Below, piece by piece: positions 9,026-31,512 of a DNA stretch of 32,678 nt; positions within the stretch are counted from its first letter, which is position 1; every line of letters begins with the position of its first letter. The translations under genes were made by a program, and so were the position numbers. The stretch lies in the NCBI GenBank assembly GCA_026985095.1, contig JALSQW010000058.1, positions 1 to 32,678 of the forward strand. The letters are read 5' to 3'. The notes beneath the pieces are model-generated. The model ran no database searches and was not told where the DNA came from. It saw only the letters and a program-made list of their open reading frames with translations. This stretch comes from Acidimicrobiia bacterium. Lineage in GTDB: Bacteria > Actinomycetota > Acidimicrobiia > Spongiisociales > UBA5794.

Positions 9026-9340
9026 ATGCTGCCCACGATCCTGCTGTTCGGACTCGCCGTCGGGGTCGGCGCCGCCGTCACCGGCCGTCGAGTCGTCGCC
9101 CTATGGGGGCTCGTGATCGCCGTCGTCTACTGGGTCGGCCTGCTCTTGGCGGTCGGGGACACCGAGAGCACGGACGTCTGGTCGCTCGTCGGACTCGGCG
9201 GGCTCTTCGCCGCGGCGAACTACCTCGTCGGTCTCGGGGTGGGTTCCGGGTCGGTGGCGCTGGTGCGGTGGGCGGCGGCGACGATGCGAGATCGGTCGCG
9301 GCCGGCGGAGCGACCGGGCGGCGAGGGGGTGGGTCCATGA
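9026..9340 (+). CDS. small membrane protein of unknown function
   Basis: A 104-residue protein with three hydrophobic stretches (about 4-20, 25-43 and 54-82) and a basic, Pro/Gly-rich tail. A GAGGAGG Shine-Dalgarno lies just before the ATG, 13 nt after the amrS stop, and its own TGA overlaps the ATG of the next gene by 4 nt. This makes an amrS-9026-9337 plus-strand operon likely. No family recognised. Confidence 0.75.
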   Translation: MLPTILLFGLAVGVGAAVTGRRVVALWGLVIAVVYWVGLLLAVGDTESTDVWSLVGLGGLFAAANYLVGLGVGSGSVALVRWAAATMRDRSRPAERPGGEGVGP

Positions 9341-9741
9341 GGCGGATGCTCTTGCTCGTGGCCGTCGCTGCCGCCGTCGTCGTGGGTGCGTGTGCGACGG
9401 CCGGCGGCCCGGTCGGCGTCACGGCCGCCGGCTCTGGGGACCTGTCGGTGACCCAGGACTGGGTCGACCGGGAGGCGGCGGATGCGGCCGTCACGTGGGC
9501 GAACCAGCTCGGTCTCGTTCGCGTCGACGAGGCGACCTGGACGGCCCGGGTCGTGGAGCTGTGCGATCTGGCTGGGCGTCCCGCCGATCGGAGTCTCCCG
9601 CCGTCGGCCTTCGATGACCTCGCCCGACGCTTCGTCGCCGGGGACGAGCCGTATTCCGTACGCGGCGGCGGCACCATGCCGTCGGTCGACGAAGCCGCCG
9701 ACACGCTCCGCACCATCGCCCTGTCCACCTGCCGCCCCTGA
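9337..9741 (+). CDS. small secreted or lipid-anchored protein of unknown function
   Basis: A 134-residue protein. A positively charged start (MRRM) and hydrophobic core lead to VVGAC near residue 19, a plausible lipobox, so it is probably a lipoprotein. The mature part contains two further Cys (ELCDLAG and the C-terminal STCRP), possibly a disulfide. The ATG overlaps the previous gene's stop (ATGA), which decides the start against an open upstream extension. It is the last gene before the first repeat array, whose first unit starts 9 nt after this stop codon. No family recognised. Confidence 0.75.
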   Translation: MRRMLLLVAVAAAVVVGACATAGGPVGVTAAGSGDLSVTQDWVDREAADAAVTWANQLGLVRVDEATWTARVVELCDLAGRPADRSLPPSAFDDLARRFVAGDEPYSVRGGGTMPSVDEAADTLRTIALSTCRP

Positions 9742-9749
9742 CGTCCGCC

Positions 9750-9876
9750 AACCCTGGGTTGGTGGACCCCCTTTAGGGGTGTGGTGAACCCTGGGTTGGT
9801 GGACCCCCTTTAGGGGTGTGGTGAACCCTGGGTTGGTGGACCCCCTTTAGGGGTGTGGTGAACCCTGGGTTCGGTG
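9750..9876 (+). repeat. 37-bp tandem repeat array 1 (three units plus a terminal half unit)
   Basis: AACCCTGGGTT recurs exactly every 37 bp (9750, 9787, 9824, 9861). Each full unit contains this 11-bp palindrome and a second small inverted repeat, ACCCC-CTTTA-GGGGT. The array ends in a divergent half unit AACCCTGGGTTCGGTG. All units in this array carry TTTA in the loop. It begins 9 nt after the stop of the gene at 9337-9741 and ends just before a good promoter (9887-9914). There are no spacers, so it is not a CRISPR array. A role as terminator or insulator is possible but not shown. Confidence 0.95.
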
Positions 9877-9886
9877 AATTCAGGGC

Positions 9887-9914
9887 TTGACGCCGTTGGG
9901 GGGGGGACTACCGT
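9887..9914 (+). promoter_or_regulatory. putative sigma-70-type promoter for the GerMN/amidase pair
   Basis: TTGACG (9887-9892), a 16-bp spacer containing a run of G, and TACCGT (9909-9914) make a good match to the housekeeping consensus. It lies 11 bp after repeat array 1 and about 31 bp before the ATG at 9946. Confidence 0.5.
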
Positions 9915-9945
9915 TGTTCTCGATCCCGTCGAGGGGTGACGTACG

Positions 9946-10809
9946 ATGCCGGACAGGTCGAAAGCGCCCGGACGCCGCTTCAGGCCATGGCTTGGAGCCG
10001 TCGGCGCCGGGATCCTGACGTTCGTCGTCGTCGGGGCATTGCCTGTCGTGTTCCATGCCGCCCCAGAGCCGTCGGACGGCAGGGCAGGAGACGGCCCGGT
10101 GGTGTTGGTCGATGCACGAGAGATGCCCTCCGACCTGCCACCAGTGCAACGCGACGAGTCGAAGAATCCTTGTGCCGATCTGTGGGAGCGGACGCGAAGC
10201 GAGGCGCGGGCGAACGGTGCGCGTGACGGCGACGCCCGTCGCCAGGCCGATGTCGCGAGGGCAGCGTGTGAGTCGGAACGGTCGGTCACTCCCACCCCGA
10301 CGTCCTTCGCCCCGTCACCCTGCCTCGGCGACCAACTCGGACGGCAGGCGCCGGCTGCCGACTCGGACGCCGTCTACGTCTACTTCCCGTGTGGCGATGC
10401 CGAGCCGTCGGCGGCGGGCCTGCGGGCGTTCGAGCGCTCCCTCGAACCGGGCCTCACGGTGGAACAGAAGGCGACGACGCTGGTGTCCTGGCTCCTCGGC
10501 GGGCCCGGAGAGACCGAGCGGGCACGCGGGTACCTCGCTCCCGACCCGGTCGCCGCCGAGCACATCGCGAGTGTCGAATGGTCCGGTGGAGCGCTCCGGA
10601 TCGATCTCGCCCCAGGTATCGAGCAGACGGCGCCCTGGTCGTCGGCGACCTTTTCGACGGGTTTCCTCGCCGCCATGGAGCAGACGCTCTTCCAGCTCGA
10701 CGAGGTGACCACCGTCGAGCTGTCGATCGGGGGTGAGTGTCGACGGTTCTCGGAGCTCGTCGAATTCGGGCCGGAGTGCGTCGTGTCGACTCGGGAGTCG
10801 ACCGGGTGA
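9946..10809 (+). CDS. GerMN domain-containing protein, membrane-anchored
   Basis: A 287-residue protein with a basic N-terminus, one hydrophobic segment (about 15-38) acting as signal anchor or signal peptide, a Pro/Asp-rich linker (about 40-115) and a C-terminal GerMN domain (about 140-275). The domain is recognisable from VYVYFPCGDAE, LTVEQKATTLVSWLLGGPGETE, WSGGALRIDL and the late MEQTLFQLDEVTTVELSIGG. GerMN domains occur in spore germination protein GerM and in many envelope lipoproteins of non-sporulating actinobacteria. GAGGGG lies before the ATG. The TGA overlaps the ATG of the amidase gene by 1 nt (TGATG), implying coupling and a shared role at the cell wall. Confidence 0.82.
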   Translation: MPDRSKAPGRRFRPWLGAVGAGILTFVVVGALPVVFHAAPEPSDGRAGDGPVVLVDAREMPSDLPPVQRDESKNPCADLWERTRSEARANGARDGDARRQADVARAACESERSVTPTPTSFAPSPCLGDQLGRQAPAADSDAVYVYFPCGDAEPSAAGLRAFERSLEPGLTVEQKATTLVSWLLGGPGETERARGYLAPDPVAAEHIASVEWSGGALRIDLAPGIEQTAPWSSATFSTGFLAAMEQTLFQLDEVTTVELSIGGECRRFSELVEFGPECVVSTRESTG

Positions 10810-11552
10810 TGAAGCGGCGGGCACTTGCCCAGGCCCCCGGCAAGATCGTCCTGGGGATCCTCGGCGGGCTCCTGCTCGCTCTGGCCGTGCAGCCAGCGAT
10901 AGCTCACCAGTACGGGAGTAGCAGCTCGTACGACGATCACCTCGGCATCTACGATTCCCTCTATTGGCCGGGGAACTACGGCCAGGCCTACAACGGCTAT
11001 CGGATTTTCCTGTCTCCCGCGCACCATTGGAGCGGGTGGAAGCATGGGTGTAGCGGCTATACCGAGGACCTCAACATGGTGGCGGTAGCGCAGGAAGCAG
11101 CAGCGGGAGCAGGCTATGATCTCGCTCATCGCGGCTATTACGTTCGGGTAGGGGCCGCCGACCCGGATGACAACGTGCGTCGCTCCAACTCGTTCGGCAC
11201 CGATCGGCACATTGCGCTCCATTCCAACGGGAGCACAAACAACGGTCCGGCGTGCCAAGGGAAGGCTGGAGGAACGAGATCCTTCTACTATCGGTCATCA
11301 AGCGGCTGGGAGAGCCCGAACGGCAAAGCGCTCGCCGAGCAGCTTCGTCTTCGCGTTGGTGCTGGCAGCCCGGGTGCCCCTGATCTCAAGTCGAGCAGCC
11401 GTCTCTACGAGCTTCGGACGACGTCGGCACCCGCGGCCTATCTCGAGGCGGAGTTCCACGATTGGGCACCAGGCGAAACGTGGCTGATCGACTACGAGAC
11501 TTGGTCCTGGCGCATCGGCTGGGCGGTGGACATGCATCTCGGCTACCCGTAG
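10809..11552 (+). CDS. N-acetylmuramoyl-L-alanine amidase-like secreted protein (Amidase_3)
   Basis: A 247-residue protein with a Sec signal peptide (hydrophobic core about 13-28, AIA before HQYG). The mature part fits a zinc amidase of the Amidase_3 type, which cuts the bond between MurNAc and the peptide stem. Probable zinc ligands are His in SPAHHW, Glu in TEDLNMV and His in ALHSNGS; the probable catalytic Glu is in YLEAEFHD near the C-terminus. It has no separate wall-binding domain. The ATG at 10809 overlaps the GerMN gene's stop by 1 nt, and no independent ribosome site is obvious, so translation is probably coupled. Repeat array 2 begins 27 nt after its stop. Confidence 0.85.
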   Translation: MKRRALAQAPGKIVLGILGGLLLALAVQPAIAHQYGSSSSYDDHLGIYDSLYWPGNYGQAYNGYRIFLSPAHHWSGWKHGCSGYTEDLNMVAVAQEAAAGAGYDLAHRGYYVRVGAADPDDNVRRSNSFGTDRHIALHSNGSTNNGPACQGKAGGTRSFYYRSSSGWESPNGKALAEQLRLRVGAGSPGAPDLKSSSRLYELRTTSAPAAYLEAEFHDWAPGETWLIDYETWSWRIGWAVDMHLGYP

Positions 11553-11578
11553 CCTCCGACGAGCGGTATCGATATGCC

Positions 11579-11753
11579 GGGGTGTGGTGAACCCTGGGTT
11601 GGTGAGCCCCCTTCAGGGGTGTGGTGAACCCTGGGTTGGTGGACCCCCTTCAGGGGTGTGGTGAACCCTGGGTTGGTGGACCCCCTTCAGGGGTGTGGTG
11701 AACCCTGGGTTGGTGAGCCCCCTTCAGGGGTGTGGTGAACCCTGGGTTCGGTG
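11579..11753 (+). repeat. 37-bp tandem repeat array 2 (four units plus a terminal half unit)
   Basis: The same 37-bp unit as array 1, in the same orientation, with AACCCTGGGTT at 11590, 11627, 11664, 11701 and 11738. It ends in the same half unit AACCCTGGGTTCGGTG. All units here carry TTCA in the hairpin loop, and units 1 and 4 have GGTGAGCCCCC where units 2 and 3 have GGTGGACCCCC. The A-B-B-A order and the array-specific loop base suggest local homogenisation. The array fills the gap between two convergent genes and stops 3 nt from the M15 peptidase stop codon. Confidence 0.95.
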
Positions 11754-11756
11754 TGG

Positions 11757-13691
11757 TCAGTGGCGGGGGAGCGGCTCGTCTGTCGGGTAGGCGGCGGTTC
11801 CGTCGATCCAACGGTGCGGTTCCGGGGCGCGGCCGGAGCGTTCCGCCAGGAAACGACCGAAGGCTGATGCGATCTCGGCCCGTGACATGGGGCGATCCCA
11901 GCAGGCCCCATCCGCAGGGTGACACGGGCTCGCGATCCCGGCGGCGAGGAGCGCCCGTGCCGCCGAGGTGACCCCGTCGCCGGGACCGGGGTCCAGGTCG
12001 GCGGCCCAGGCCAAGAACGCGGCGAACTCGCCGCGGGTCAGCAGACGGGGCGGACAGGCGGCGTGCTCGTCGGTCGGATCGCAATCGGCGGGGAAGCGGT
12101 TGCGCTCCAGCCACGCCACCGCGCCCTTCGACATCCACGACGCCGAACCGAAGCGCACAGGCTGGTCGTCCCAGCGCCATTCGAGCTCGTGGCATTCGGG
12201 CTCGTCGACGACGAACCACAGGTCGAGGGGCTTGCCGTCGGGAAGTCGGCTGTTGCCGAGCCACACGGCGAGGGCGGTCCCGTCGTAGACGAGGAGGTCC
12301 GGACGGCCGTCCCCGTCGTAGTCGGCTGCGCCGGCATCGACGACGCGCGCCGGCACCCCGTCGACGGCGTGGGTCTCGGCGACGGTCCGGTAGCCGTCGG
12401 CGGCGGTGGCGATCCGCAGCGTGTCTCCGTCCAAGGCCCACAGGTCGGGCAGCTCGTCGAGGTCCCGGTCGCCGAGCATCCACACCCCGCGGAGGTCGGC
12501 GGGGAGATCCGTCCCGAAGCGCACCTCGCTCGCCCCGGTGTCGGCGTCGACCGCCCACACGCCGAGACGGCCATCCTCGACGACGAACAGGTCGAGCCGC
12601 CCGTCCCGGTCGGCGTCGGCCGTCGAGATCCACGCTCCCGGCCCCGGCGTGGGAACGCCCGTGATCACGTCGGTCTCGGCGGACAGGTCCCCGTACGCCC
12701 ACCGCACCGTGAGCCGCAGGCGCCCGTCGGCGTCCGAGACCAGCCACAGGTCCTGTCCGCCGCGGCCGTCCCAGTCCCCGAAGCCGGCGGCGCGTATCTC
12801 GGCGGGACCGATCGGGACGTCGGCGGCCACCGTCCGGCGTAGCGAGCAGGCGTTGAAGCGGCGGGCCGCGGTGGCGGTATCGACGACGACGTCGGAGCCG
12901 CGGAACGCAAGCGACGTCACGTCGATGGCGCCGTTGCCGGTGGTGTCGGCCAGGATCGTGGCGAAGGTGCCGCTGGGCGGCCGCGGCGTCACCGGCACCG
13001 TGACGTCCCGGCGCGGGAACGGCACCGCGTCGGTGAGCGGCGGGTAGGCCATCGGCAGGTCGGCGCCGTCGGTGAACGCCGGGCCCTGCCAGGACAGATG
13101 CATCGCGTCCTTGGCGCCGAACCAGGCGCCGCCCCAGCAGAACCCGGCCTCCTCGAAGGCGTCGACCCACCAGGCCGGCATGTCGGTGACGAGCCGGTTG
13201 TCGGCGCGGTACGGGTTCCGGTGGGCGTTGACGTCGATGGCGAGCCCGAACGTGTGGCGCGACAGCCGGGTCTTGCCGAGGATCGTCCGCGCCGCCACCG
13301 CGTAGGTCTTCGACGGCACGATCCGGTACACGTCCCCGGCGGCGAGCCGCTCGGCGATCGTCGCCGACACCTGCTCCAACGCCGGCAACATCCGCTCGTG
13401 GACACTGAGCCGTTCCGTCGAGCCGGGGACGCCCCACGGGGCGAGATCGGCGAACACCTGGGCCACCGTCCGCCCGAACATCGCCGCGTACGGGCCGCGG
13501 AGGATCGACCGCTTGCTCAGCCACCCGGTGAAACCCACATACGGTGTCGTCGTAGAGCGGGCGCCACACGCGCTCGACTCGGTGAAGGTCGGCCACGCCT
13601 CGCCCTCGCCGCCCGTTGCCGTTGCCGGCCCAGCCGGGACGAGCGCGGCGAGGACGGCGACGACCACGAGCGTGGCGAGGCGTTGCAGCAT
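11757..13691 (-). CDS. secreted M15 family (D-Ala-D-Ala carboxypeptidase-like) peptidase with VCBS-like repeats and SLH-like tail
   Basis: About 644 residues: signal peptide (1-25, ending ATA), peptidase domain (about 35-200), acidic repeat region (about 235-500) and C-terminal segment (about 520-640). The M15 zinc site is complete: SRHTFGLAIDV gives His146 and Asp153, and DAMHLSW gives His198. The middle has repeated Asp-rich loops (DRDGRLDLFVV, DYDGDGRPDLLVY) of the VCBS/FG-GAP type that bind calcium in relatives. The C-terminus resembles S-layer homology repeats (AVAWLERNRFPADCDP..., RLLTRGEFAAFLAWA). It likely trims peptidoglycan peptides outside the membrane. ATG 13691 is preferred to the GTGs at 13694 and 13700 because a TAGCGT -10-like element ends exactly 7 nt before it. 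Confidence 0.9.
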   Translation of the reverse strand: MLQRLATLVVVAVLAALVPAGPATATGGEGEAWPTFTESSACGARSTTTPYVGFTGWLSKRSILRGPYAAMFGRTVAQVFADLAPWGVPGSTERLSVHERMLPALEQVSATIAERLAAGDVYRIVPSKTYAVAARTILGKTRLSRHTFGLAIDVNAHRNPYRADNRLVTDMPAWWVDAFEEAGFCWGGAWFGAKDAMHLSWQGPAFTDGADLPMAYPPLTDAVPFPRRDVTVPVTPRPPSGTFATILADTTGNGAIDVTSLAFRGSDVVVDTATAARRFNACSLRRTVAADVPIGPAEIRAAGFGDWDGRGGQDLWLVSDADGRLRLTVRWAYGDLSAETDVITGVPTPGPGAWISTADADRDGRLDLFVVEDGRLGVWAVDADTGASEVRFGTDLPADLRGVWMLGDRDLDELPDLWALDGDTLRIATAADGYRTVAETHAVDGVPARVVDAGAADYDGDGRPDLLVYDGTALAVWLGNSRLPDGKPLDLWFVVDEPECHELEWRWDDQPVRFGSASWMSKGAVAWLERNRFPADCDPTDEHAACPPRLLTRGEFAAFLAWAADLDPGPGDGVTSAARALLAAGIASPCHPADGACWDRPMSRAEIASAFGRFLAERSGRAPEPHRWIDGTAAYPTDEPLPRH

Positions 13692-13698
13692 CACCCCC

Positions 13699-13704
13699 AC
13701 GCTA
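13699..13704 (-). promoter_or_regulatory. putative -10 element (TAGCGT), leaderless start for the M15 peptidase
   Basis: TAGCGT on the minus strand fits TANNNT and lies 7 nt before the ATG at 13691. The spacing is the same as at the cysteine leader peptide (14886-14891). A transcript starting at the ATG is predicted. Confidence 0.35.
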
Positions 13705-21383: not shown

Positions 21384-21460
21384 CCTCGCTCGGCGGGAGC
21401 CGTGACATCGTCGGGACCGACGGCGACGTCTCGGGTCACTGGACCGTCGGCGCCTCGCCG

Positions 21461-21466
21461 TAGGAT
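21461..21466 (+). promoter_or_regulatory. putative -10 element (TAGGAT) for the beta-ureidopropionase-like gene
   Basis: TAGGAT lies 31 nt before the ATG at 21498 and upstream of the GAGGAGGT ribosome site. It may drive the whole catabolic and transport run that follows. No clear -35 was found. Confidence 0.3.
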
Positions 21467-21497
21467 GGGGCTGCCGCTCAGAGGAGGTACCGCAGCG

Positions 21498-22340
21498 ATG
21501 ACCGACGTCGTTCGAGCCGCGCTCGTCCAAGCCGAATGGACGGGAGACCGCACGTCGATGATGGACAAGCAGATCGGCTACGCCCGCCAAGCCGCCGAAG
21601 AGGGCGCGCAGGTGCTGTGTTTCCAGGAGATCTTCAACAGCCCCTACTTCTGCACGATCCAAGATCCATCCTTCTACGACTGGGCCGAGCCGATCCCCGA
21701 CGGGGACACGGTCCGACGCATGCAGGACCTCGCCAAGGACACGTCGATGGTCCTCGTCGTCCCCATGTACGAGCGGGTCGACGAAGGGACCTTCTACAAC
21801 ACCGCCGTCGTCATCGACGCCGACGGCTCCTTCCTCGGCATCTACCGCAAGACCCACATCCCCCAGGTCGAAGGATTCTGGGAGAAGTTCTACTTCCGAC
21901 CAGGCAACACCGGCTTCCCCGTCTTCGACACCGCCGTCGGGAAGATCGCCGTGTACATCTGCTACGACCGACACTTCCCCGAAGGCTGGCGCGAGCTCGG
22001 GCTCAACGGCGCCCGCATCGTGTTCAACCCGTCGGCCACCACCCGCGGCCACTCCAAGTACCTGTGGGAGCTGGAACAACCCGCCGCGGCGGTCGCCAAC
22101 CAGTACTTCGTCGGCGCCATCAACCGCGTCGGCGCCGAAGGCCTCGACGGCACCGACTACTACGGCACGTCGTACTTCGTCGATCCCCGCGGTCAGATCG
22201 TCGGCGGAACCGCATCGGACACCACCGACGAAGTCATCGTCCGGGACCTCGACATGGGTGAGATCGAGCGAGCCCGACGGCACTGGGCCTTCTACCGCGA
22301 CCGACGACCCGAGGTGTACACCGGCATCGCCCGGCCCTGA
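21498..22340 (+). CDS. nitrilase superfamily amidohydrolase, beta-ureidopropionase / N-carbamoylputrescine amidase-like
   Basis: A 280-residue carbon-nitrogen hydrolase. The catalytic triad is Glu44 (FQEIFNSPYFC), Lys118 (YRKTHIP) and Cys155 (ICYDRHFPEGWR). The FQEIFNSPYFC and CYDRHFPEGWR segments are those of N-carbamoyl-beta-alanine amidohydrolases and N-carbamoylputrescine amidases, which hydrolyse an N-carbamoyl amine to amine, CO2 and ammonia. GAGGAGGT precedes the ATG. It lies 76 nt upstream of the BMP transporter operon, so it may act on ureido products of pyrimidine or hydantoin breakdown or on imported ureides. It is a distinct enzyme from the N-carbamoyl-D-amino-acid hydrolase upstream, with only superfamily-level similarity. 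Confidence 0.87.
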   Translation: MTDVVRAALVQAEWTGDRTSMMDKQIGYARQAAEEGAQVLCFQEIFNSPYFCTIQDPSFYDWAEPIPDGDTVRRMQDLAKDTSMVLVVPMYERVDEGTFYNTAVVIDADGSFLGIYRKTHIPQVEGFWEKFYFRPGNTGFPVFDTAVGKIAVYICYDRHFPEGWRELGLNGARIVFNPSATTRGHSKYLWELEQPAAAVANQYFVGAINRVGAEGLDGTDYYGTSYFVDPRGQIVGGTASDTTDEVIVRDLDMGEIERARRHWAFYRDRRPEVYTGIARP

Positions 22341-22416
22341 CCCGACCGCCACTTGACCGAAGCGCCCACGACGACCACCATCGTCGCCACGCTGGAGACC
22401 GATTGGAGATCGACCG

Positions 22417-23577
22417 ATGAGACGACTGAAGCGCTGGATGCTGCTCCTCGCAGCCTTGGCGATCGTGGCCGCCGCCTGCTCCTCGGGCAGCACGACCACC
22501 ACCGCCGCAGGCGGAGACACCGGAGGGGACACGGGCGACGAGATGACCGAACCGCTCCAGGTGGCGTTCGTCTACGTCGCTCCCATCGGTGACCTCGGCT
22601 GGACCTGGGCCCACGACCAAGGCCGCAAAGCGATCGAAGACCAGTTCGGCGACCAGGTGGAGACCACCTTCGTCGAGAACGTTCCCGAAGGGCCCGACGC
22701 CGAACGGGTCATCCGCGACCTCGCCCAGAAGGGCAACGACCTCATCGTCACCACGTCGTTCGGGTTCATGGATCCGACCATCGCCGTGGCCTCCGAGTTC
22801 CCCGACGTCGAGTTCGTCCACATCTCGGGCTTCAAGACCGCCGACAACGTCTCGACCGTGTTCGGTCGGATGTACCAGCCTCGGTACCTGTCGGGCATCG
22901 TTGCCGGCGCCGCCACCGAGACCAACACCATCGGCTACGTCGCCGCCTTCCCGATCCCCGAGGTGATCCGAGGGATCAACGCGTTCGCCCTGGGCGTCCA
23001 GCAGTCGGCGCCCGACGCCGTCGTCAAGGTCGTGTGGACCAACACCTGGTTCGGCCCGCCCGAAGAGAAGGAAGCCGCCGAAGCGCTCCTCGCCTCCGGC
23101 GCCGACGTCATCGCCCAACACCAGGACACCACCGAGCCCCAGAAGGCCGCCGCCGACGCCGGAGCCGTCTCGATCGGCTACGACTCGGACATGCGGGCCT
23201 TCGTCGGCGACACCGTCCTCACCAGCCCGGTGTGGAACTGGGGGGTCGAGTACGTCGACATCGTCCAGCAGATCCTCGACGGCACCTACACGGGCGGCTT
23301 CCAGTACTGGGGCGGGATGGACGACGGCATCGTCGATCTCGCACCCATGTCGCCGATGGTGTCCGAAGAGACCGCGGCCGTGGTGGAGAAGGCCCGTCAA
23401 GCGATCATCGCCAACCAGACCGACGTGTTCTGCGGGCCGATCGAAGGCGCCAACGGCAACATGGTCGTCGACGACGGCAAATGCCTGACCGACGGTGAGA
23501 TGCTCTCGATGGACTGGTTCGTCGCGGGAGTCGAGGGAGAGGCGCCCGCCGAGGCACCGACCGGCTTGGGCGAATGA
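22417..23577 (+). CDS. BMP family ABC transporter substrate-binding lipoprotein
   Basis: A 386-residue lipoprotein. The signal peptide ends in AAAC (Cys21), followed by a Ser/Thr/Gly linker. The rest is a basic membrane protein (BMP/PnrA-like) periplasmic-binding fold: VAFVYVAPIGDLGWTWAHDQGRKAIE, DLAQKGNDLIVTTSFGFMDPT, FPDVEFVHISG, GIVAGAATETNTIGYVAAFPIPEVIRGINAFALGVQ and ASGADVIAQHQDTTEPQKAA. Characterised BMP proteins bind nucleosides (PnrA, NupN, BmpA), so purine or pyrimidine nucleosides, or related compounds such as the substrates of the neighbouring enzymes, are likely. GGAG precedes the ATG. TTGACC at 22353-22358 could be a -35, but no good -10 follows it. It is first in the transporter operon. 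Confidence 0.93.
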   Translation: MRRLKRWMLLLAALAIVAAACSSGSTTTTAAGGDTGGDTGDEMTEPLQVAFVYVAPIGDLGWTWAHDQGRKAIEDQFGDQVETTFVENVPEGPDAERVIRDLAQKGNDLIVTTSFGFMDPTIAVASEFPDVEFVHISGFKTADNVSTVFGRMYQPRYLSGIVAGAATETNTIGYVAAFPIPEVIRGINAFALGVQQSAPDAVVKVVWTNTWFGPPEEKEAAEALLASGADVIAQHQDTTEPQKAAADAGAVSIGYDSDMRAFVGDTVLTSPVWNWGVEYVDIVQQILDGTYTGGFQYWGGMDDGIVDLAPMSPMVSEETAAVVEKARQAIIANQTDVFCGPIEGANGNMVVDDGKCLTDGEMLSMDWFVAGVEGEAPAEAPTGLGE

Positions 23578-23635
23578 CCCGAAGCGTCGGGTGGTCGTGG
23601 AAGGACACGACCGCCCGACGCGCCCGTCCGCTCCC

Positions 23636-25195
23636 GTGACCGACACAGCCCCCATCGCCGTCGCCCTTCGGGGGATCACCAAGACCTTCCCCGGCGTGCT
23701 CGCCAACGACGATGTCGACCTCGAGGTCCGACGTGGCGAGATCCATGCCCTCCTCGGTGAGAACGGCGCCGGCAAGTCGACGCTGATGAGCGTCCTGACC
23801 GGCCTCTATCAGCCCGACCGCGGCCAGATCCTCATCGGCGATGAGACCGGAAGCCTCCGGCCCGTCACGATCGTCTCCCCCCGCGACGCCATCGGTCTCG
23901 GCATCGGGATGGTCCATCAGCACTTCAAGCTCGTCCCCACCCAAACCGTCGCCGAGAACATCATCCTCGGCATGGACGGCGTACCGTTCGTCCTCGACAT
24001 GGGTTCGGTCGAGGCCGACGTCGCCGCACTGTCGGAACGGTTCCGCATGCCGGTCCCCGTCTCCGCCTTCATCTGGCAGATCTCCGTCGGCGAGCAGCAA
24101 CGCGTCGAGATCCTCAAGGCCCTCTACCGGGGCGCCGAGATCCTCATCCTCGATGAGCCCACCGCCGTGCTCACCCCACAGGAAGCCGCCGAGGTGGCCG
24201 CCACCCTCCGGGCGCTCGCCGGCGAAGGCAAAGCCATCATCTTCATCTCCCACAAACTCGACGAGGTGATGACCGTCGCCGACCGGGTCACCGTCCTCCG
24301 GAAGGGACGCAACGTCGCCACCGTGGACGTCGGCGCCACCGACAAGCACCGGCTCGCCGAGCTGATGGTCGGGCGCGAGGTCGCCACCACCATCGACAAG
24401 GACGACGGGGCCATCGGACCCGTCGTGTTGCGGATCGACGGTGTCGTCGCCCGCAACGACCGCGGCATCGTGGCGTTGAAGGACCTCACCCTCGAGGTGC
24501 GCGCCGGGGAGATCCTCGGCATCGCCGGGGTCGCCGGCAACGGTCAGCGGGAGCTCACCGAGGTCGCTACCGGGCTTCGCCGCGTCGAGCAGGGGACCGT
24601 CACCGTCGACGGCGAAGACCTCACCAACCGGCCGCCGGTGCGGTTCATCGACGCCGGCGTCAGCCACGTTCCCTCCGACCGTCTCGGCCGCGGCCTGGCC
24701 GGGAACCTCCCGCTCGCCGACAACATGGCCATGAAGGCCTACCGGAGGCCACCGATCGCTGCGGGGCCCATGCTCCGACGGGACCGGATGCGGGCCTTCG
24801 CCGGCGACCTGATCGAACGATTCAACGTCGACACACCCGGCCCCGACACGCCGGCCCGCAACCTGTCGGGCGGGAACCAACAGAAGGCGATCCTGGCGAG
24901 GGAGATCACCGCAGGGACGTGGGCCAGAGAGCGAGGCAGGCGCCCCGTCCTCATCGCCGCCTACCCGACTCGAGGCCTCGACGTCGGAGCGATCGAAGAC
25001 GTTCGCCGCCACCTGATCGAGCAACGCTCCGGCGGAACCGCGGTGCTCCTCATCTCCGAGGAACTCGACGAGCTGATGATGATGAGCGACCGGATCGCGG
25101 TCCTCCACGGCGGCGAGGTCATGGGCGTCGTCGCCCCCGCCGAGACCACGATCGAAGAGCTCGGTCTGATGATGGCCGGGGAGATGCGGCGATGA
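23636..25195 (+). CDS. ABC transporter ATP-binding protein (two nucleotide-binding domains, BMP-linked)
   Basis: A 519-residue fused ATPase of the sugar/nucleoside type. Domain 1 has Walker A GENGAGKS (41-48), the Q-loop region GMVHQHFKLVPTQTVAEN, a signature-like ISVGEQQRVEI and Walker B ILILDEPTAVLTP. Domain 2 has a degenerate Walker A (GVAGNGQREL, no GKS/T), signature LSGGNQQKAILARE and a weak Walker B (LIAAYPTRGLDVGA, with Tyr-Pro in place of Asp-Glu). A degenerate second site is normal in this subfamily. The start is uncertain: GTG 23636 gives a family-typical N-terminus but no ribosome site; upstream in-frame GTGs exist, the nearest near 23591-23600. Its TGA overlaps the permease ATG by 4 nt. 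Confidence 0.92.
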   Translation: MTDTAPIAVALRGITKTFPGVLANDDVDLEVRRGEIHALLGENGAGKSTLMSVLTGLYQPDRGQILIGDETGSLRPVTIVSPRDAIGLGIGMVHQHFKLVPTQTVAENIILGMDGVPFVLDMGSVEADVAALSERFRMPVPVSAFIWQISVGEQQRVEILKALYRGAEILILDEPTAVLTPQEAAEVAATLRALAGEGKAIIFISHKLDEVMTVADRVTVLRKGRNVATVDVGATDKHRLAELMVGREVATTIDKDDGAIGPVVLRIDGVVARNDRGIVALKDLTLEVRAGEILGIAGVAGNGQRELTEVATGLRRVEQGTVTVDGEDLTNRPPVRFIDAGVSHVPSDRLGRGLAGNLPLADNMAMKAYRRPPIAAGPMLRRDRMRAFAGDLIERFNVDTPGPDTPARNLSGGNQQKAILAREITAGTWARERGRRPVLIAAYPTRGLDVGAIEDVRRHLIEQRSGGTAVLLISEELDELMMMSDRIAVLHGGEVMGVVAPAETTIEELGLMMAGEMRR

Positions 25196-26325
25196 ACCTG
25201 CCGTACCGGGTCACGCTCGAGAAGCGCCTCGACGCCCCTCGGATCGTCGTGTGGCTCGTGCCCGTCGTCTCCATCCTCGTCGCGCTCGCGTTCGGTGCGA
25301 TCGTCCTGGCGGTCGCCGGCGCCGACCCGCTGGAGGCCTACGGCCAGATCCTCACCGGCGCCTTCGGGTCCCTCACCGCGTGGCTCGACGGAGAGTTCTA
25401 CGCCGTGTCCGAAACCGTCGTGCGCACCGTCCCGTTGATCCTCACGGGCCTCGCCGTCGCCGTCGCCTTCCGGATGCGCTTCTGGAACATCGGCGCCGAA
25501 GGCCAGCTCGTCTTCGGTGGCGTCTTCGCCGCCTGGGTCGCCCTGTTCCTCCCCGGGGTGATCCCCGGTATCCCGCAGACCCTGTGGGTGTACCTGCCGC
25601 TGATGGCCGTCGTCGCGGTCGCCGGGGGCGCCATCTGGGCACTCATCCCCGCGTTCCTGAAGGCCTACCTCGACGTCGACGAGATCATCACCACGATCAT
25701 GCTCAACTTCGTGGCGATCCTCACCTACCAGTATCTGTTCACCGGACCGTGGAAGGACCCCGAAGGCCAAGGGTTCCCCGGCTCGGCCCTGTTCCCCGAG
25801 TTCACGTGGCTTCCTCGACTCACCGGGCGGGTCACCCTCGGGCTCGTCCTGGCCCTGGCAGCGGCCGTGGTCGTCTGGCTCATCTTCGACCACACCAAGC
25901 TCGGGTACGAGATCGCGCTCATGGGTGAGAACCCCGAAGCTGCCCGATACGCCGGAGTGAACCGGGCCGGCATCATCATCGTTGTCATGGTGCTGTCGGG
26001 CGGGCTCGCCGGACTGGCAGGGTTCACCGAGACCGCCGGCATCTCGCACCGACTCCAACAAGGCCTCGCCATCGGCAACGGCTTCACCGGGATCATCGTC
26101 GCCTGGGTCGCCAAACTCCGGCCTGGATGGATCGTCGTCGTCGCGTTCTTGCTGTCGGCGCTGTTCGTCGGCGGAGACCAGCTCCAGATCTCGATGGGTC
26201 TCCCGGCGTCCATCGGCGCCTTCTTCCAGGGGATGATCCTCCTGTTCATCCTCGGCGGCGACGTGTTCACCCGCTACCGGGTCAAGGTCGCTCGCCGGCC
26301 CGCGGCCGTGGCTGTCGAGGGGTGA
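25192..26325 (+). CDS. ABC transporter permease (BMP/nucleoside type)
   Basis: A 377-residue inner membrane permease of the branched-chain/ribose (BPD_transp_2) type. About ten hydrophobic segments start near residue 20. The AFRMRFWNIGAEGQLVFGGVFAAW and YLDVDEIITTIMLNFVAILTYQYLF segments are typical of the first permease in BMP transporters, and the coupling helix region YEIALMGENPEAARYAGVN is present. The ATG overlaps the ATPase stop (ATGA). The partner permease follows after 4 nt, so the pair forms a heterodimeric channel. Confidence 0.93.
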   Translation: MNLPYRVTLEKRLDAPRIVVWLVPVVSILVALAFGAIVLAVAGADPLEAYGQILTGAFGSLTAWLDGEFYAVSETVVRTVPLILTGLAVAVAFRMRFWNIGAEGQLVFGGVFAAWVALFLPGVIPGIPQTLWVYLPLMAVVAVAGGAIWALIPAFLKAYLDVDEIITTIMLNFVAILTYQYLFTGPWKDPEGQGFPGSALFPEFTWLPRLTGRVTLGLVLALAAAVVVWLIFDHTKLGYEIALMGENPEAARYAGVNRAGIIIVVMVLSGGLAGLAGFTETAGISHRLQQGLAIGNGFTGIIVAWVAKLRPGWIVVVAFLLSALFVGGDQLQISMGLPASIGAFFQGMILLFILGGDVFTRYRVKVARRPAAVAVEG

Positions 26326-26329
26326 GCCG

Positions 26330-27280
26330 ATGGACCTGCTGACCTCGATCCTGGCCATCGCCGTGTTCGCCGGCGCGTCGCTCGTGTACGCCTCGGTCGG
26401 TGAGATCCTCACCGAACGGTCCGGCATCCTCAACCTCGGCGTCGAAGGCATGATGATCATGGGAGCCGTCACCGCCTTCGCCGCCGCCGTCGCCTCCGGC
26501 AACGCGGTGGTCGGCGTCGTCGTCGGCGGCCTCGTCGGCGGCATGCTTGCCCTCGTCCACGCCTTCCTGACCATCACCCTGCGCGCCGACCAGGTCGTCT
26601 CCGGCCTCGCCCTCACGCTCGCCGGCGGCGGCCTCGCCAGTTTCCTCGGTCAGCGGCTCGGCCCGGGCGGCGCCCCGCTCGTCGGCATGGTGGGACCCCG
26701 ATTCCGCGCGATCACGATCCCCGGTCTGTCCGACATCCCCGTGATCGGTCCCGCGTTCTTCGACCAGGACGCGTTGGTCTACCTGCTGTTCCTCGTCGTT
26801 CCGCTCGCCTGGTTCCTGCTCGCCCGCACCCGCCCAGGGCTGTACCTGCGAGCCGTCGGCGAGAACCCGCAGACCGCCGACGCCATGGGGATCGACGTCT
26901 TCCAGGTCCGGTACCTCTACACCTTCGTCGGCGGCGTCATGGCCGGGGTCGCCGGCGCCCATCTGTCGCTCGCCTACACCCCCGGATGGACCGAGAACCT
27001 CACCGGAGGAAGGGGATGGATCGCCGTCGCGCTCGTCATCTTCGCCACCTGGGATCCCCGCAAAGCCGTCGCCGGAGCGTTGCTCTTCGGCGGTGTCAAC
27101 GCCATCCAGTTCCGTCTTCAGGCCGAAGGGACGACGATCCCCGCAAGCCTGCTCAACATGATGCCGTACATCCTGACCATCGTCGTGCTGGTGGTCATCA
27201 CCCGCTTCGAATCGATCCGCAAGAAGGTCGGTGCCCCCGCCGCCCTCGGGCTCCCCTACAACCGAGAGGAGCGCACATGA
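26330..27280 (+). CDS. ABC transporter permease, second subunit (BMP/nucleoside type)
   Basis: A 316-residue membrane permease, shorter than its partner as in other BMP transporters. Characteristic segments are ASVGEILTERSGILNLGVEGMMIMGAV near the start, TLRADQVVSGLALTLAGGGLASFLG in the middle and the coupling-helix region YLRAVGENPQTADAMGIDVFQVRYLYTFVGG. Eight or nine hydrophobic segments are visible. GGGGTGAG lies before the ATG. Its TGA overlaps the ATG of the deaminase gene by 4 nt, tying transport directly to purine or pyrimidine processing. Confidence 0.93.
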   Translation: MDLLTSILAIAVFAGASLVYASVGEILTERSGILNLGVEGMMIMGAVTAFAAAVASGNAVVGVVVGGLVGGMLALVHAFLTITLRADQVVSGLALTLAGGGLASFLGQRLGPGGAPLVGMVGPRFRAITIPGLSDIPVIGPAFFDQDALVYLLFLVVPLAWFLLARTRPGLYLRAVGENPQTADAMGIDVFQVRYLYTFVGGVMAGVAGAHLSLAYTPGWTENLTGGRGWIAVALVIFATWDPRKAVAGALLFGGVNAIQFRLQAEGTTIPASLLNMMPYILTIVVLVVITRFESIRKKVGAPAALGLPYNREERT

Positions 27281-27858
27281 CCCTGCCCGAATACCGGCTG
27301 CGCCTGCCCGACTGGATCGACGACATCGCCGGCGAGGACGTGGTGCTCCCCGACGTGGACGACCGCATGCGCTTCGTGGTGTCCCTCGCCCGGCGCAACG
27401 TCGCCGAAGACACCGGCGGGCCGTTCGGCGCCGCCATCTTCGAACGCGGCACGGGACGCCTCGTGGCCCCTGGCGTCAACCGGGTCGTTCCGGCCCGCAG
27501 CGCCACCGCCCACGCCGAGATCGTCGCCATCAGCCTCGCCGGTCAGGTCAAAGGGACCTTCGATCTCGGCGCCGGAACGCCCACGGAACTGGTCACCAGC
27601 GTCGAACCGTGCGCGATGTGCCTCGGCGCCGTCCCGTGGTCCGGCGTCGCTGCCGTCGTCTGCGGCGCCCGCGACGAGGACGCCCGCGCCGTCGGGTTCG
27701 ACGAAGGCGACAAACCCGCCGACTGGATCGACTCCCTGGCCGCTCGGGGCATCGACGTCGTCCGCGACGTCATGCGTCGCGATGCCGCCGCCGTCCTGCA
27801 GGACTACGCAGCGGCAGGCGGCATCATCTACAACGGAAAGAGCCTGCCCGATGCATGA
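27277..27858 (+). CDS. nucleoside/nucleobase deaminase (cytidine deaminase-like, guanine deaminase type)
   Basis: A 193-residue zinc deaminase of the cytidine deaminase-like superfamily. The zinc and catalytic residues are present: His79-Ala-Glu81 (TAHAEIVAIS) and Pro111-Cys112-x2-Cys115 (EPCAMCLGA). The FGAAIF segment, the CLGAVPWSGVAAVVCGARDEDA stretch and the total length resemble TadA/GuaD-type guanine and nucleoside deaminases, somewhat longer than TadA itself. It sits in the same operon as a nucleoside-type ABC transporter and a xanthine dehydrogenase-type enzyme, so guanine to xanthine or an equivalent step is likely; cytosine or other substrates remain possible. The ATG overlaps the permease stop (ATGA); its own stop overlaps the next gene by 8 nt. 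Confidence 0.88.
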   Translation: MTLPEYRLRLPDWIDDIAGEDVVLPDVDDRMRFVVSLARRNVAEDTGGPFGAAIFERGTGRLVAPGVNRVVPARSATAHAEIVAISLAGQVKGTFDLGAGTPTELVTSVEPCAMCLGAVPWSGVAAVVCGARDEDARAVGFDEGDKPADWIDSLAARGIDVVRDVMRRDAAAVLQDYAAAGGIIYNGKSLPDA

Positions 27859-29299
27859 GGTCCAGCGACTCCACGACCCGGTCGTGCGCTACCTGGCGTC
27901 CACCACCGTCGACGAAGCGCTCGACGCCCTCGCCGAACACGGCGACCGCGCCCGGGTCGTCGCCGGTGCGACCGACCTGCTCCTCGAGATCCGACGTGGC
28001 GTCCGCACCGGCATCGACACCCTCGTCGACCTCACCCGCATCGACGGGCTTGGCGACATCGATCTGGAGGGTGGCACCGTCCATCTCGGCCCGCTCGTGA
28101 CCCACGCCGACGTCGTCGCGTCCGAGATCCTGCGCCGCCACGGTCTCCCCCTCGCCCAGGCATCGCTCGAGGTCGGCGGGCCGCAGCTTCGGAACCGTGC
28201 CACCGTCGCCGGCAACGTCGTCACCGCCAGCCCGGCCAACGACACCGTGTCGGCCCTCGTCGCCCTCGACGCGTCGCTCACGCTCACGTCGAACGCCGGG
28301 AGCCGGACGATGCCCATCACCGACTTCCTCCTCGGCGTCCGTCGGACCGCCCTCCGGCAGGGCGAGATCGTCACCGACATCTCCTTCCCCGCCCTCGACG
28401 CGTCCCGACGCGGCATCTTCCTCAAGCTGGGCCTCCGCAGCTCCCAGGCGATCTCGGTGGTCCACCTCGCCGTCGTCGCAACCTTCGACGCGACGACGGT
28501 CACCGAACCGCGGGTCGCCCTCGGCAGTGTCGCACCGACCGTCGTGCGTTCGCCGGCGGCCGAGGCCGCTCTCGATGGCGCCACCCTCGACGGCACGACC
28601 ATCGCCGTCGCCGCGGACGCGGCCGCCGCCGAGATCCAACCCATCGACGACCTGCGAGCGACCGCCGACTACCGACGGGCCGCGGTCGCGGTCATGATGC
28701 GACGCGCCCTCGCCGCCCTCGGCGCCGGCATCGAGGCGACGATGTGGCCATCCCGGCCGCCGTTGCTCCGCACGCCGGCCGTCGAAGGCCCGCCGACGGC
28801 CCCTGTCGTCACCGACGGGGACACCATCGCCGCCACTATCAACGGCGAGGAGGTCGCGGTCCCGGCCGCGGTCGACGACACCCTTCTGGTCTGGCTGCGG
28901 GACGTCGCCGGCCCCGCCCTCGGGACGTCGCTCACCGGCACGAAGGAGGGCTGTGCCGAAGGCGAATGCGGCGCCTGCACCGTCTTCCTCGACGGCAAGG
29001 CGGTTCTCTCGTGCCTCGTGCCGGCGCCCCGCGCCGACGGCGCCGACATCGTCACCGTTGAAGGGATCGCCACAGATGCGCCGCATCGGGTGCAAGCAGG
29101 CTTCGTCCGCGCCGACGCCACCCAATGCGGGTTCTGTACCCCCGGTTTCGTCATGGCCGCCGCCAAACTGCTCGAGGAGATCCCGATCCCCGACCTCGAC
29201 ACGATCCGCCACGCCATGTCGGGCAACGTCTGCCGATGCACCGGCTACACCTCCATCTTCGACGGTGTGCTCCACGCCATCGACGAGGGACGACCGTGA
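27851..29299 (+). CDS. fused FAD-binding and [2Fe-2S] subunit of a xanthine dehydrogenase-type enzyme
   Basis: A 482-residue fusion. Residues 1-290 are the FAD-binding (CoxM/XdhB) part with VVAGATDLLLE (37-47) and the FAD loop GGPQLRNRATVAGNVVTASPAND (109-131), followed by the CO-dehydrogenase flavoprotein C-terminal domain. Residues about 320-482 are the ferredoxin part (CoxS/XdhC-like) with Cys368, Cys373, Cys376 and Cys388 for the plant-type [2Fe-2S] cluster (GCAEGECGACTVF), and Cys426, Cys429, Cys461 and Cys463 for the second cluster (CGFCTPG and CRC). The order FAD then Fe-S reverses the usual Fe-S-FAD order of fused xanthine dehydrogenases. The ATG overlaps the deaminase stop by 8 nt; the next gene overlaps its stop by 4 nt. 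Its role is electron transfer from the Mo site. Confidence 0.93.
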   Translation: MHEVQRLHDPVVRYLASTTVDEALDALAEHGDRARVVAGATDLLLEIRRGVRTGIDTLVDLTRIDGLGDIDLEGGTVHLGPLVTHADVVASEILRRHGLPLAQASLEVGGPQLRNRATVAGNVVTASPANDTVSALVALDASLTLTSNAGSRTMPITDFLLGVRRTALRQGEIVTDISFPALDASRRGIFLKLGLRSSQAISVVHLAVVATFDATTVTEPRVALGSVAPTVVRSPAAEAALDGATLDGTTIAVAADAAAAEIQPIDDLRATADYRRAAVAVMMRRALAALGAGIEATMWPSRPPLLRTPAVEGPPTAPVVTDGDTIAATINGEEVAVPAAVDDTLLVWLRDVAGPALGTSLTGTKEGCAEGECGACTVFLDGKAVLSCLVPAPRADGADIVTVEGIATDAPHRVQAGFVRADATQCGFCTPGFVMAAAKLLEEIPIPDLDTIRHAMSGNVCRCTGYTSIFDGVLHAIDEGRP

Positions 29300-31512
29300 A
29301 CGGCGTCGGCCGGTCCGTGCCTCGCGTCGACGCCGTGGCCAAGGTCACCGGCGCTGCCCGCTATCCCGCCGACGTCGCCGGCCCGGAGCTGCTCCACGCC
29401 AAGGTCGTCTTCAGTGGCCGCCCCCACGCTCGCATGGTGGCCATGGACGTCGCTCCCGCCCTGGCCGTACCCGGCGTCGTCGACGTCGTCACCGCCGCCG
29501 ACGTGCCGGTCAACGAGTACGGCTTGACGATGTTCGACCAGCCGGTCCTGGTCGGTGTGGGAGCGACGGGCAGGAGCGCGGTGCCGTCGGACGTCAGCCG
29601 CTGGGAAGGCGATCAGATCGCCGTGGTGATCGCCGAGACGCCGCGAGCTGCGGCCGAAGGTGCCGCGGCCTTGCGCGTCGACTGGGAGGACCTCCCGATC
29701 GTGGCCGACCTCGAGGCGGCCCTCCGCGACGAGGTGCTGGTCCACGACGAGACCGCCACCAACGTCTACGTCCACGACCGGATCCGCAAGGGCGACATCG
29801 CCGCCGGCTGGGCCCAGGCCGACGTCGTCGTCGAAGGCACCTACCGCCTGCCGCACCAGGAACACGCGTTCCTCCAACCCGAAGCGGCCGTCTCCTACCT
29901 CGACACCGACGGGCGCGTCACGGTCGAGATCGCCGGACAGTGGGCCCACGAGGACCAGGCGCAGATCGCTCACGCCCTCGACCTGCCACCCGAGCAGGTG
30001 CGGGTCATCTACACCGCCATCGGTGGGGCGTTCGGCGGTCGGGAGGACATGTCGTTGCAGATCGTCATGGCGCTCGCCACCCGCAAGCTCGCCGCCCGCG
30101 GCATCGACCGCCCCATCCGATGCGTGTGGTCACGAGAGGAGTCCATCGTCGGCCACCACAAGCGCCACCGGGGCCTCGTGCATGCGAAGCTGGGTGCCAC
30201 CAGCGACGGCACGATCGTCGCCGTCGAAGCCGACGCGTACCTCGACGCCGGCGCCTACAACTACACCACCAACAAGGTCCTCGGGAACCTCCATCTGACC
30301 GTGTCGGGGCCCTACGAGATCCCCAACGCCAGGATCGACTCGTACGGGGTGTACACGAACGCCGTCCCCGGTGGCGCGTTCCGCGGGTTCGGTTCGCCGC
30401 AGGGGGCGTTCGTCGCAGAGAACCAGATGAACAAGCTCGCCGAGGTGCTCGGCATGGATCCCGTCGAGCTGCGGATGCGTAACGTCATCCGGGAAGGCAG
30501 CATCGGCCCGACCCAGGTGCCCTTCCCTCCCGGAGTGTCCATGCCGGAGGTCATCGAGGCCTGCGCACAGGCCGCCGCAGACGGGACCGACGAGGCTGCG
30601 GCCTTCTCGCCCATCGCATCCCTCCCCAGCGTCGGCGCTCGCATCCGCCGCGGTCGGGGCTTCGCCTGCGCCTTCAAGAACGTGGGCTTCTCCTTCGGGT
30701 TCCCCGAACGGTGCGAAGCCACCATCGAGCTCCACGGCGACGAGGAGATCGAGCGGGTCGTCCTCCACCACGCAGGCGCCGACGTCGGCCAGGGCGCCCA
30801 CACCGTGTTCAGGCAGATGGCCGCCGACGCGGTCGGTGTCGACCTCGACAAGGTCGACACCGTCTACTCCGACACCGCCACCACCGGCGATTCCGGTTCC
30901 GCCTCGGCGTCCCGGCTCACCTTCATGGCCGGCAACGCCATCCTGGGGGCCGCAGAGGAAGCCGACAAGCGATGGCGCGACGGCGACCGTCCGGCGGTGG
31001 GAGAGTTCCGGTACGTTCCTCCACCCACCGACCCGTACGATCCCGACACCGGACGGGGTGCGATCAACTTCGCCTACGGCTACGTCGCCGAAGCGGTCGA
31101 TGCCGCCGTCGATCTCGACACCGGCCACATCCGGGTCCACCGCGTCGTCTGCGCCGTCGACGTGGGGAAGGCCGTCAACCCCAAGCTCGTCGAAGGGCAG
31201 GTCCACGGCGCCGTCGTTCAGGCCCACGGCTACGCCCTCACCGAACGCCTCGTCGTGGTCGACGGCCGGATCGTCAACCCGCGGCTGTCGGGGTACCTCG
31301 TCCCCGGCGCCCTCGACATCCCCGACCGCATCGAGACGGTCATCGTCGAGCATCCCGACCCGCGCGGCCCGTGGGGTGCCCGCGGCATGGCCGAGATGCC
31401 GTTCATCCCTTACGCGCCGGCCGTCGTCGCCGCCATCCACGACGCCACCGGCATCTGGTTCGACGAGATCCCCCTCACCCCCGACCGCGTACTCGCCGCC
31501 CTGCGCGCCTGA
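29296..31512 (+). CDS. xanthine dehydrogenase family protein, molybdopterin-binding subunit
   Basis: A 738-residue large subunit of the xanthine oxidase family. Order: the ald_xan_dh_C hammerhead domain (about 15-130; KVTGAARYPADV, LLHAKVVFSGRPHA), then Moco domains with QEHAFLQPEAAVSY, GGAFGGREDMSLQ, VPGGAFRGFGSPQ, DVGQGAHTVFRQMAADAVGV and the C-terminal GPWGARGMAEMPF, whose Glu aligns with the catalytic base of xanthine dehydrogenase. Together with the FAD/Fe-S subunit it should hydroxylate a purine or similar N-heterocycle using water. GTG 29296 overlaps the previous stop (GTGA), which decides the start. The maturation protein (XdhC-type) is not in the window. The substrate may differ from xanthine. 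Confidence 0.93.
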   Translation: MNGVGRSVPRVDAVAKVTGAARYPADVAGPELLHAKVVFSGRPHARMVAMDVAPALAVPGVVDVVTAADVPVNEYGLTMFDQPVLVGVGATGRSAVPSDVSRWEGDQIAVVIAETPRAAAEGAAALRVDWEDLPIVADLEAALRDEVLVHDETATNVYVHDRIRKGDIAAGWAQADVVVEGTYRLPHQEHAFLQPEAAVSYLDTDGRVTVEIAGQWAHEDQAQIAHALDLPPEQVRVIYTAIGGAFGGREDMSLQIVMALATRKLAARGIDRPIRCVWSREESIVGHHKRHRGLVHAKLGATSDGTIVAVEADAYLDAGAYNYTTNKVLGNLHLTVSGPYEIPNARIDSYGVYTNAVPGGAFRGFGSPQGAFVAENQMNKLAEVLGMDPVELRMRNVIREGSIGPTQVPFPPGVSMPEVIEACAQAAADGTDEAAAFSPIASLPSVGARIRRGRGFACAFKNVGFSFGFPERCEATIELHGDEEIERVVLHHAGADVGQGAHTVFRQMAADAVGVDLDKVDTVYSDTATTGDSGSASASRLTFMAGNAILGAAEEADKRWRDGDRPAVGEFRYVPPPTDPYDPDTGRGAINFAYGYVAEAVDAAVDLDTGHIRVHRVVCAVDVGKAVNPKLVEGQVHGAVVQAHGYALTERLVVVDGRIVNPRLSGYLVPGALDIPDRIETVIVEHPDPRGPWGARGMAEMPFIPYAPAVVAAIHDATGIWFDEIPLTPDRVLAALRA

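Follow-up and report, generated by a model that had tools for sequence, protein, structure and literature searches.

Dispersed palindromes of bacteria are usually tied to RAYT transposases. To our knowledge, it is poorly understood how the copies of a short repeat are kept uniform within a genome in which their sites do not move. Mycobacterial MIRU, which are also actinobacterial and are present as about 40 intergenic tandem-repeat loci, resemble the element analysed here; their units are longer and are not known to have the A/B dyad plan given below, the comparison being one of description. For the REPtron, it was described that the transposase gene can be flanked by REP copies (PMC3733652, PMC2817692). 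The present element is a short palindrome with many extragenic copies, as are REP and BIME, and it is further like REP, BIME and REPIN in its high copy number, its frequent position just behind genes, its occurrence as single copies or arrays and its genome-specific stem. It is unlike REP in its conserved part, an 11-bp palindrome (A) at both ends instead of a 4-nt tag, and in the tandem head-to-tail arrays common in the genus of the window (the whole stretch of DNA analysed, 32,678 nucleotides). It is unlike the REP/RAYT system in that RAYT was absent from the element-bearing genomes searched, the flanked gene encoding an AbiEi-Vsr-like fusion. Small inverted-repeat elements without genes, next to a version that shares their ends, carries a gene and is rare, are also a feature of MITEs, from which the present case differs in that the partner is a putative nuclease and not a known transposase. 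The family is a dispersed, order-specific, REP-like element, of which the arrays in the window are local head-to-tail expansions. As the best explanation overall, we favour with moderate confidence that this REP-like A-B-A family is homogenised and spread by a candidate AbiEi-Vsr-like nuclease.

The window is the entire contig JALSQW010000058.1 (C58) of an Acidimicrobiia genome (G000; 2.93 Mb, 70 contigs, 100% complete). Two arrays were detected by TRF, array 1 at 9750-9876 (37-bp period, 3.4 copies, 98% matches, score 245) and array 2 at 11579-11753 (37-bp period, 4.7 copies, 96% matches, score 313), respectively. Both are composed of the same unit on the + strand, AACCCTGGGTT-GGTGGA-CCCCCTTYAGGGG-TGTGGTG, and both end in the identical half unit AACCCTGGGTTCGGTG; the 5' end of array 2 lies within a unit (GGGGTGTGGTG), and the register spacing from array 1 to array 2 is 1766 bp. 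The loop is TTTA in all units of array 1 and TTCA in all units of array 2. The shared 37-bp unit, the same strand and the same terminal half unit reported in the initial annotation were confirmed by TRF and by reading in register, as were the private loops in every unit of each array. The features are given below.

9337..9741, + strand: small lipoprotein-like gene, stop codon 8 bp before array 1
9750..9871, + strand: array 1, four A palindromes AACCCTGGGTT at 9750, 9787, 9824 and 9861
9767-9779 (first of three), + strand: B hairpins of array 1, CCCCC-TTTA-GGGG, with the tail CGGTG to 9876
9946..10809, + strand: GerMN-domain gene between the arrays (Germane/GerMN PF10646, E 8.2e-6)
10737..11552 (start may be 10812), + strand: amidase_3-like gene between the arrays (Amidase_3 PF01520, sub-threshold, E 3.6e-4)
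11579..11753, + strand: array 2, with the truncated half unit GGGGTGTGGTG at 11579-11589
11590, 11627, 11664, 11701 and 11738, + strand: five A palindromes of array 2
within array 2, + strand: four B hairpins, CCCCC-TTCA-GGGG, with the tail CGGTG
11757..13700, - strand: Peptidase_M15_4/FG-GAP protein gene, convergent with the amidase gene, stop codon 8 bp from the end of array 2

The GerMN and amidase genes are passengers between the arrays and lie outside the element itself. No Pfam match was obtained for the lipoprotein-like gene, and the search of 9600-11900 against Rfam 15 gave 0 matches at E up to 1. At 21402-31512 of the window, a nucleoside/purine cluster was judged by eye from the translations, with a nitrilase-type hydrolase, a BMP-like lipoprotein, an ABC ATPase, two permeases, a deaminase and xanthine-dehydrogenase-like subunits.

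The 37-bp unit is the tandem form of a 47-bp palindrome A-B-A, where A is the conserved 11-bp palindrome AACCCWGGGTT and B is a hairpin with a sequence differing between genera; A and B are the two palindromes per unit that had been noticed at first, and their presence was supported. When the arrays of G000 were read in register, A palindromes AACCCTGGGTT were found every 37 bp, separated by 25-26-bp spacers with the hairpin B (CCCC-n4-GGGG in G000). Typical arrays start with CG-AACCC and finish with GGGTT-CG. A degenerate cap, AACCGTGGGCT (or AGCCCACGGTT), ends many arrays in G000, G001, G026 and G006/G023/G068 and is often inverted.

The 25-bp middle differs in every genus and is still an inverted repeat, as exemplified by GTAGACCGCG-CTATA-CGCGGTCTAC, GGCGG-TTT-CCGCC and CTTCG-CTATA-CGAAG. 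For 59 aligned modules, the covariation score was 0.242 versus 0.116 +/- 0.010 for the shuffled ones and 0.10 or less (0.07-0.10) for the slid ones, and every base pair of B showed changes on both sides. By compensatory changes, B is kept self-complementary between genera. Covariation was found only between genomes; within one genome B is without it, because the B stem is nearly fixed in each genome. Changed copies of A keep pairing as well (AACCC..GGGCT/AGCCC..GGGTT in G046 and G039; TACCC..GGGTA in G008), the near-invariance of A being partly a product of the exact-pattern search, while the compensated variants were found by the model search.

Element counts are given as lower bounds throughout. 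Elsewhere in the 2.93-Mb genome G000, at least 69 matches to the unit were found in about 40 arrays. Two exact A palindromes 34-39 bp apart were present in 27 of 395 genomes of the class, all of them in the order to which the window belongs, and the same pattern read backwards, used as a control, gave 0 throughout the 395 genomes. By using a covariance model, with matches in array 1 at 9750-9797, 9787-9834 and 9824-9871, elements were detected in 45 of the 138 genomes and 25 of the 61 genera of the order, and the search of about 250 genomes from other orders gave none. Most families have the element as a lone 47-bp copy, which often follows a stop codon by 6-25 bp; tandem arrays stand out in the genus of the window and in G026. 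The genomes are drafts, mostly MAGs, in which arrays break assemblies; gene calls came from a home-made codon model, contexts were taken from a retrained gene caller, and the stretches around the elements were read.

All arrays of G000 are intergenic, with none inside a gene. Elements typically lie 5-20 bp from the closest stop codon, and the two-sided arrays of G000 lie between convergent genes in 12 of 37 cases versus 15 of 156 for the other intergenic gaps (p 0.001). The excess of convergent pairs is seen at the G026 elements too (p 0.02), and one array is located about 20 nt behind a tRNA-Gly gene. These positions, the stable folding of single modules (-48 to -51 kcal/mol, z -13) and the conservation of element sites between species, which is described below, would fit host-maintained 3'-end structures, which selection would preserve as bidirectional terminators or as protectors of mRNA 3' ends; B would change because only its pairing matters, and gene conversion would homogenise it. 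We regard this explanation as rather unlikely. In 102 elements, the hairpin is not followed by the T-tract of an intrinsic terminator (T 0-0.30 over the next 12 positions, and 0.10 or less at the first five), certain elements (L217, L218) have ordinary terminator-like hairpins next to them, and divergent genes flank some of the copies (L013, which is conserved in G001, and several in G046 and G039); moreover, the conserved sequence of A, the genome-wide uniform B and the bracketed nuclease would be left unexplained. Under the favoured explanation, homogenisation by the candidate nuclease, the host probably tolerates the hairpins that follow stop codons, and these may serve as structures of the 3' end or as terminators. 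Against the favoured explanation, site conservation could also reflect host function.

Sites and hairpins were compared between G000 and G001 (JALVQZ01), a second species of the window's genus. The named genomes closest by the radical-SAM protein are Acidimicrobiia/Actinomycetota MAGs, and JALVQZ01 among them was equated with G001 because its contig is identical in every letter. The 37-bp unit was searched for in the genome and its relatives and was found scattered, and 22 of the 29 distinct array sites of G001 are array sites of G000 as well (5.8% coverage expected by chance, binomial p 7e-22). Between the two genomes, the identity of B was 0.640 for orthologous arrays versus 0.623 for non-orthologous ones, with flanks mostly 81-94% identical; within a genome, it was 0.77-0.81 between arrays and 0.92-0.93 within an array. 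For G046 and G039, which belong to another family, the identity was 0.555 for orthologous B and 0.533 for all pairs, with within-genome values of 0.71 and 0.92; G026 is looser, with B 0.60 alike between arrays. Since orthologous B is no more alike than unrelated B, B evolves in concert in each genome. The sites are inherited between species, and B is rewritten genome-wide at those places. Ordinary gene conversion alone seems a weak engine for it, given the unrelated flanks and the 47-bp copies. The within-array homogenisation suggested at first also holds, the spacers being 93% identical within arrays versus 77% between arrays.

In the initial annotation, the two arrays were further considered as long direct repeats bounding a cassette that could be deleted, duplicated or inserted by homologous recombination. 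The part of this that stood is that element-bounded DNA can differ between relatives. Element-bounded gene differences are found at the L030 and L031 sites, and 15.7 kb lie between two direct element copies at G039:C10:6400-22100 (L300), where a single copy is present at the matching site of G046. Three and one extra genes, respectively, are found in G001 at two sites that hold only an array in G000 (L272, L273; G001:C107, C287); one of the two sites retains a truncated A/A' pair. Also in favour of a cassette, no amidase was detected in G001 or in the majority of the 60 relatives searched; the G001 contig orthologous to the window ends just before the 9877-11578 block. The part that did not stand is the two arrays as a special bracket, and a dedicated cassette bounded by them is considered improbable: the unit is present at about 40 unrelated intergenic sites of G000, and most of these arrays have unchanged neighbours in G001. 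A GerMN homologue also adjoins the amidase in L102 and L103; the pair is present in the same gene order in genus g7, which is element-free, so the pair does not owe its origin to the arrays. The GerMN-amidase block lies between arrays because the element is so common, and not as a dedicated cassette. By eye, the 15.7-kb block of G039 contains dehydrogenase-complex-like, ABC transporter and acyl-CoA-synthetase-like genes.

Mobilisation by a RAYT (Y1) transposase, as in a classical REP/BIME or REPIN family, would likewise go with short extragenic palindromes in high copy, single or tandem, with a 3'-end bias and a genome-specific sequence. However, PF01797 was absent from G000, G001 and G026, its sole match among 50 family genomes being in the element-free G009, with named controls behaving as expected in the search, and B is without a constant GTAG or CGTC tag of the REP superfamily in the 59 aligned modules. 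Mobilisation by RAYT is refuted for the genomes searched, and we give this origin very little credence. A plain slippage-driven VNTR with chance palindromes, which would account for within-array homogeneity and variable copy number, is just as implausible and was rejected, because other families mostly have single 47-bp copies and B is maintained by compensatory changes, with pairing conserved across genera. A CRISPR was rejected as well, as judged from the spacers, which are near-identical within an array and not unique.

Genes next to elements were compared between genomes, and one gene was found to recur, in four genomes that span three genera and two families. In all four, this candidate nuclease gene lies between elements, as follows.

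G000, L034:9746-10669: candidate nuclease gene bracketed by two arrays (stretch L034:9618-10822 is G000:C9:17617-18821)
G026, L158:1560-2474: candidate nuclease gene with elements on both sides
G039, L262:1222-2121: candidate nuclease gene with elements on both sides
G046, L277:934-1833: candidate nuclease gene with elements on both sides

As G039 and G046 are one orthologous case, the surroundings amount to three independent ones. The chance of one gene being bracketed was roughly estimated at 3e-6 to 3e-5 per genome, before allowing for the ~200 element-adjacent genes compared. In G026, a unit of element, nuclease gene and array lies between holA and greA, the stop codons of which are 4 bp apart in G000; in this comparison, the only one of an occupied with an empty site, the two are too diverged to define a target-site duplication. 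The genes adjoining the candidate in the four genomes look unrelated, as judged from the translations. Reading of 13 elements in G037, and of elements in G346, G328 and G001, revealed no copy of the candidate next to them; in G001, it may be missed because this genome is fragmented at arrays.

The candidate protein carries an AbiEi_4 domain (PF13338, E 4e-9 to 6e-7; AbiEi is the antitoxin that pairs with the toxin AbiEii in AbiE type IV toxin-antitoxin systems), a sub-threshold match to REase_MTES_1575 (PF18741, E 1e-6 to 3e-5) and a conserved motif of the IEWDS-x-RWHT type. Its AlphaFold model (mean pLDDT 74.7, pTM 0.47), which rests on four sequences, was aligned with the catalytic domain of I-Bth0305I (Foldseek E 1e-3; VIA-align Z 12.3, rmsd 2.8, 96 residues), with an AbiEi antitoxin (VIA-align Z 11.4, rmsd 10.0, 172 residues) and with Vsr (VIA-align Z 9.4), respectively. 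The protein is accordingly predicted from the model to be an AbiEi-like DNA-binding region fused to a nuclease domain of Vsr/I-Bth0305I fold. The likeness to the EDxHD/Vsr-type I-Bth0305I concerns the modelled fold of the C-terminal about 100 residues; unlike I-Bth0305I, the candidate has an N-terminal AbiEi-like region, and its gene is bracketed by palindromic repeats and does not lie in an intron, cleavage being putative. No match was obtained in NCBIfam, no relevant match in the PDB by sequence search and no relative in IMG/VR. Among the papers listed, nothing relevant was found on tandem or palindromic repeats in Acidimicrobiia, or on DUF559/AbiEi with palindromes.

Recognition, cutting and homing, as we infer them, would proceed as follows. 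The candidate nuclease, which would serve the elements now or have served them formerly, would recognise the elements and cut them, and the cut would be repaired from other copies, by which old copies would be converted to the current type of B in a homing-like homogenisation. The repair would occasionally copy or move an element, or the DNA between two elements, and may spread or delete element-bounded DNA; tandem units would then grow or shrink by ordinary unequal recombination. It is also possible, and is proposed here tentatively, that the partnership of repeat and nuclease is of a new kind, in which dozens of intergenic palindromes are the homing sites of an AbiEi-Vsr/homing-like nuclease and a shift in its preference for B leads to conversion of all copies in place. 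If true, concerted evolution across the genome would here be driven without a transposase, by an engine confined to a single order of Acidimicrobiia. Dozens of inherited sites with the hairpin rewritten per genome bear on the uniformity of short repeats, and the position of the candidate enzyme between copies makes the mechanism directly testable.

Many arrays of G001 are located at contig ends (C14, C63, C80, C87, C185 and others), and the repeats probably fragment the MAG assemblies of this order. In IMG/VR, one match to the paired A was obtained, IMGVR_UViG_3300046514_000687 (L198), a 111-kb contig with one A pair, the source of which may be host DNA or else a virus that belongs to this order.
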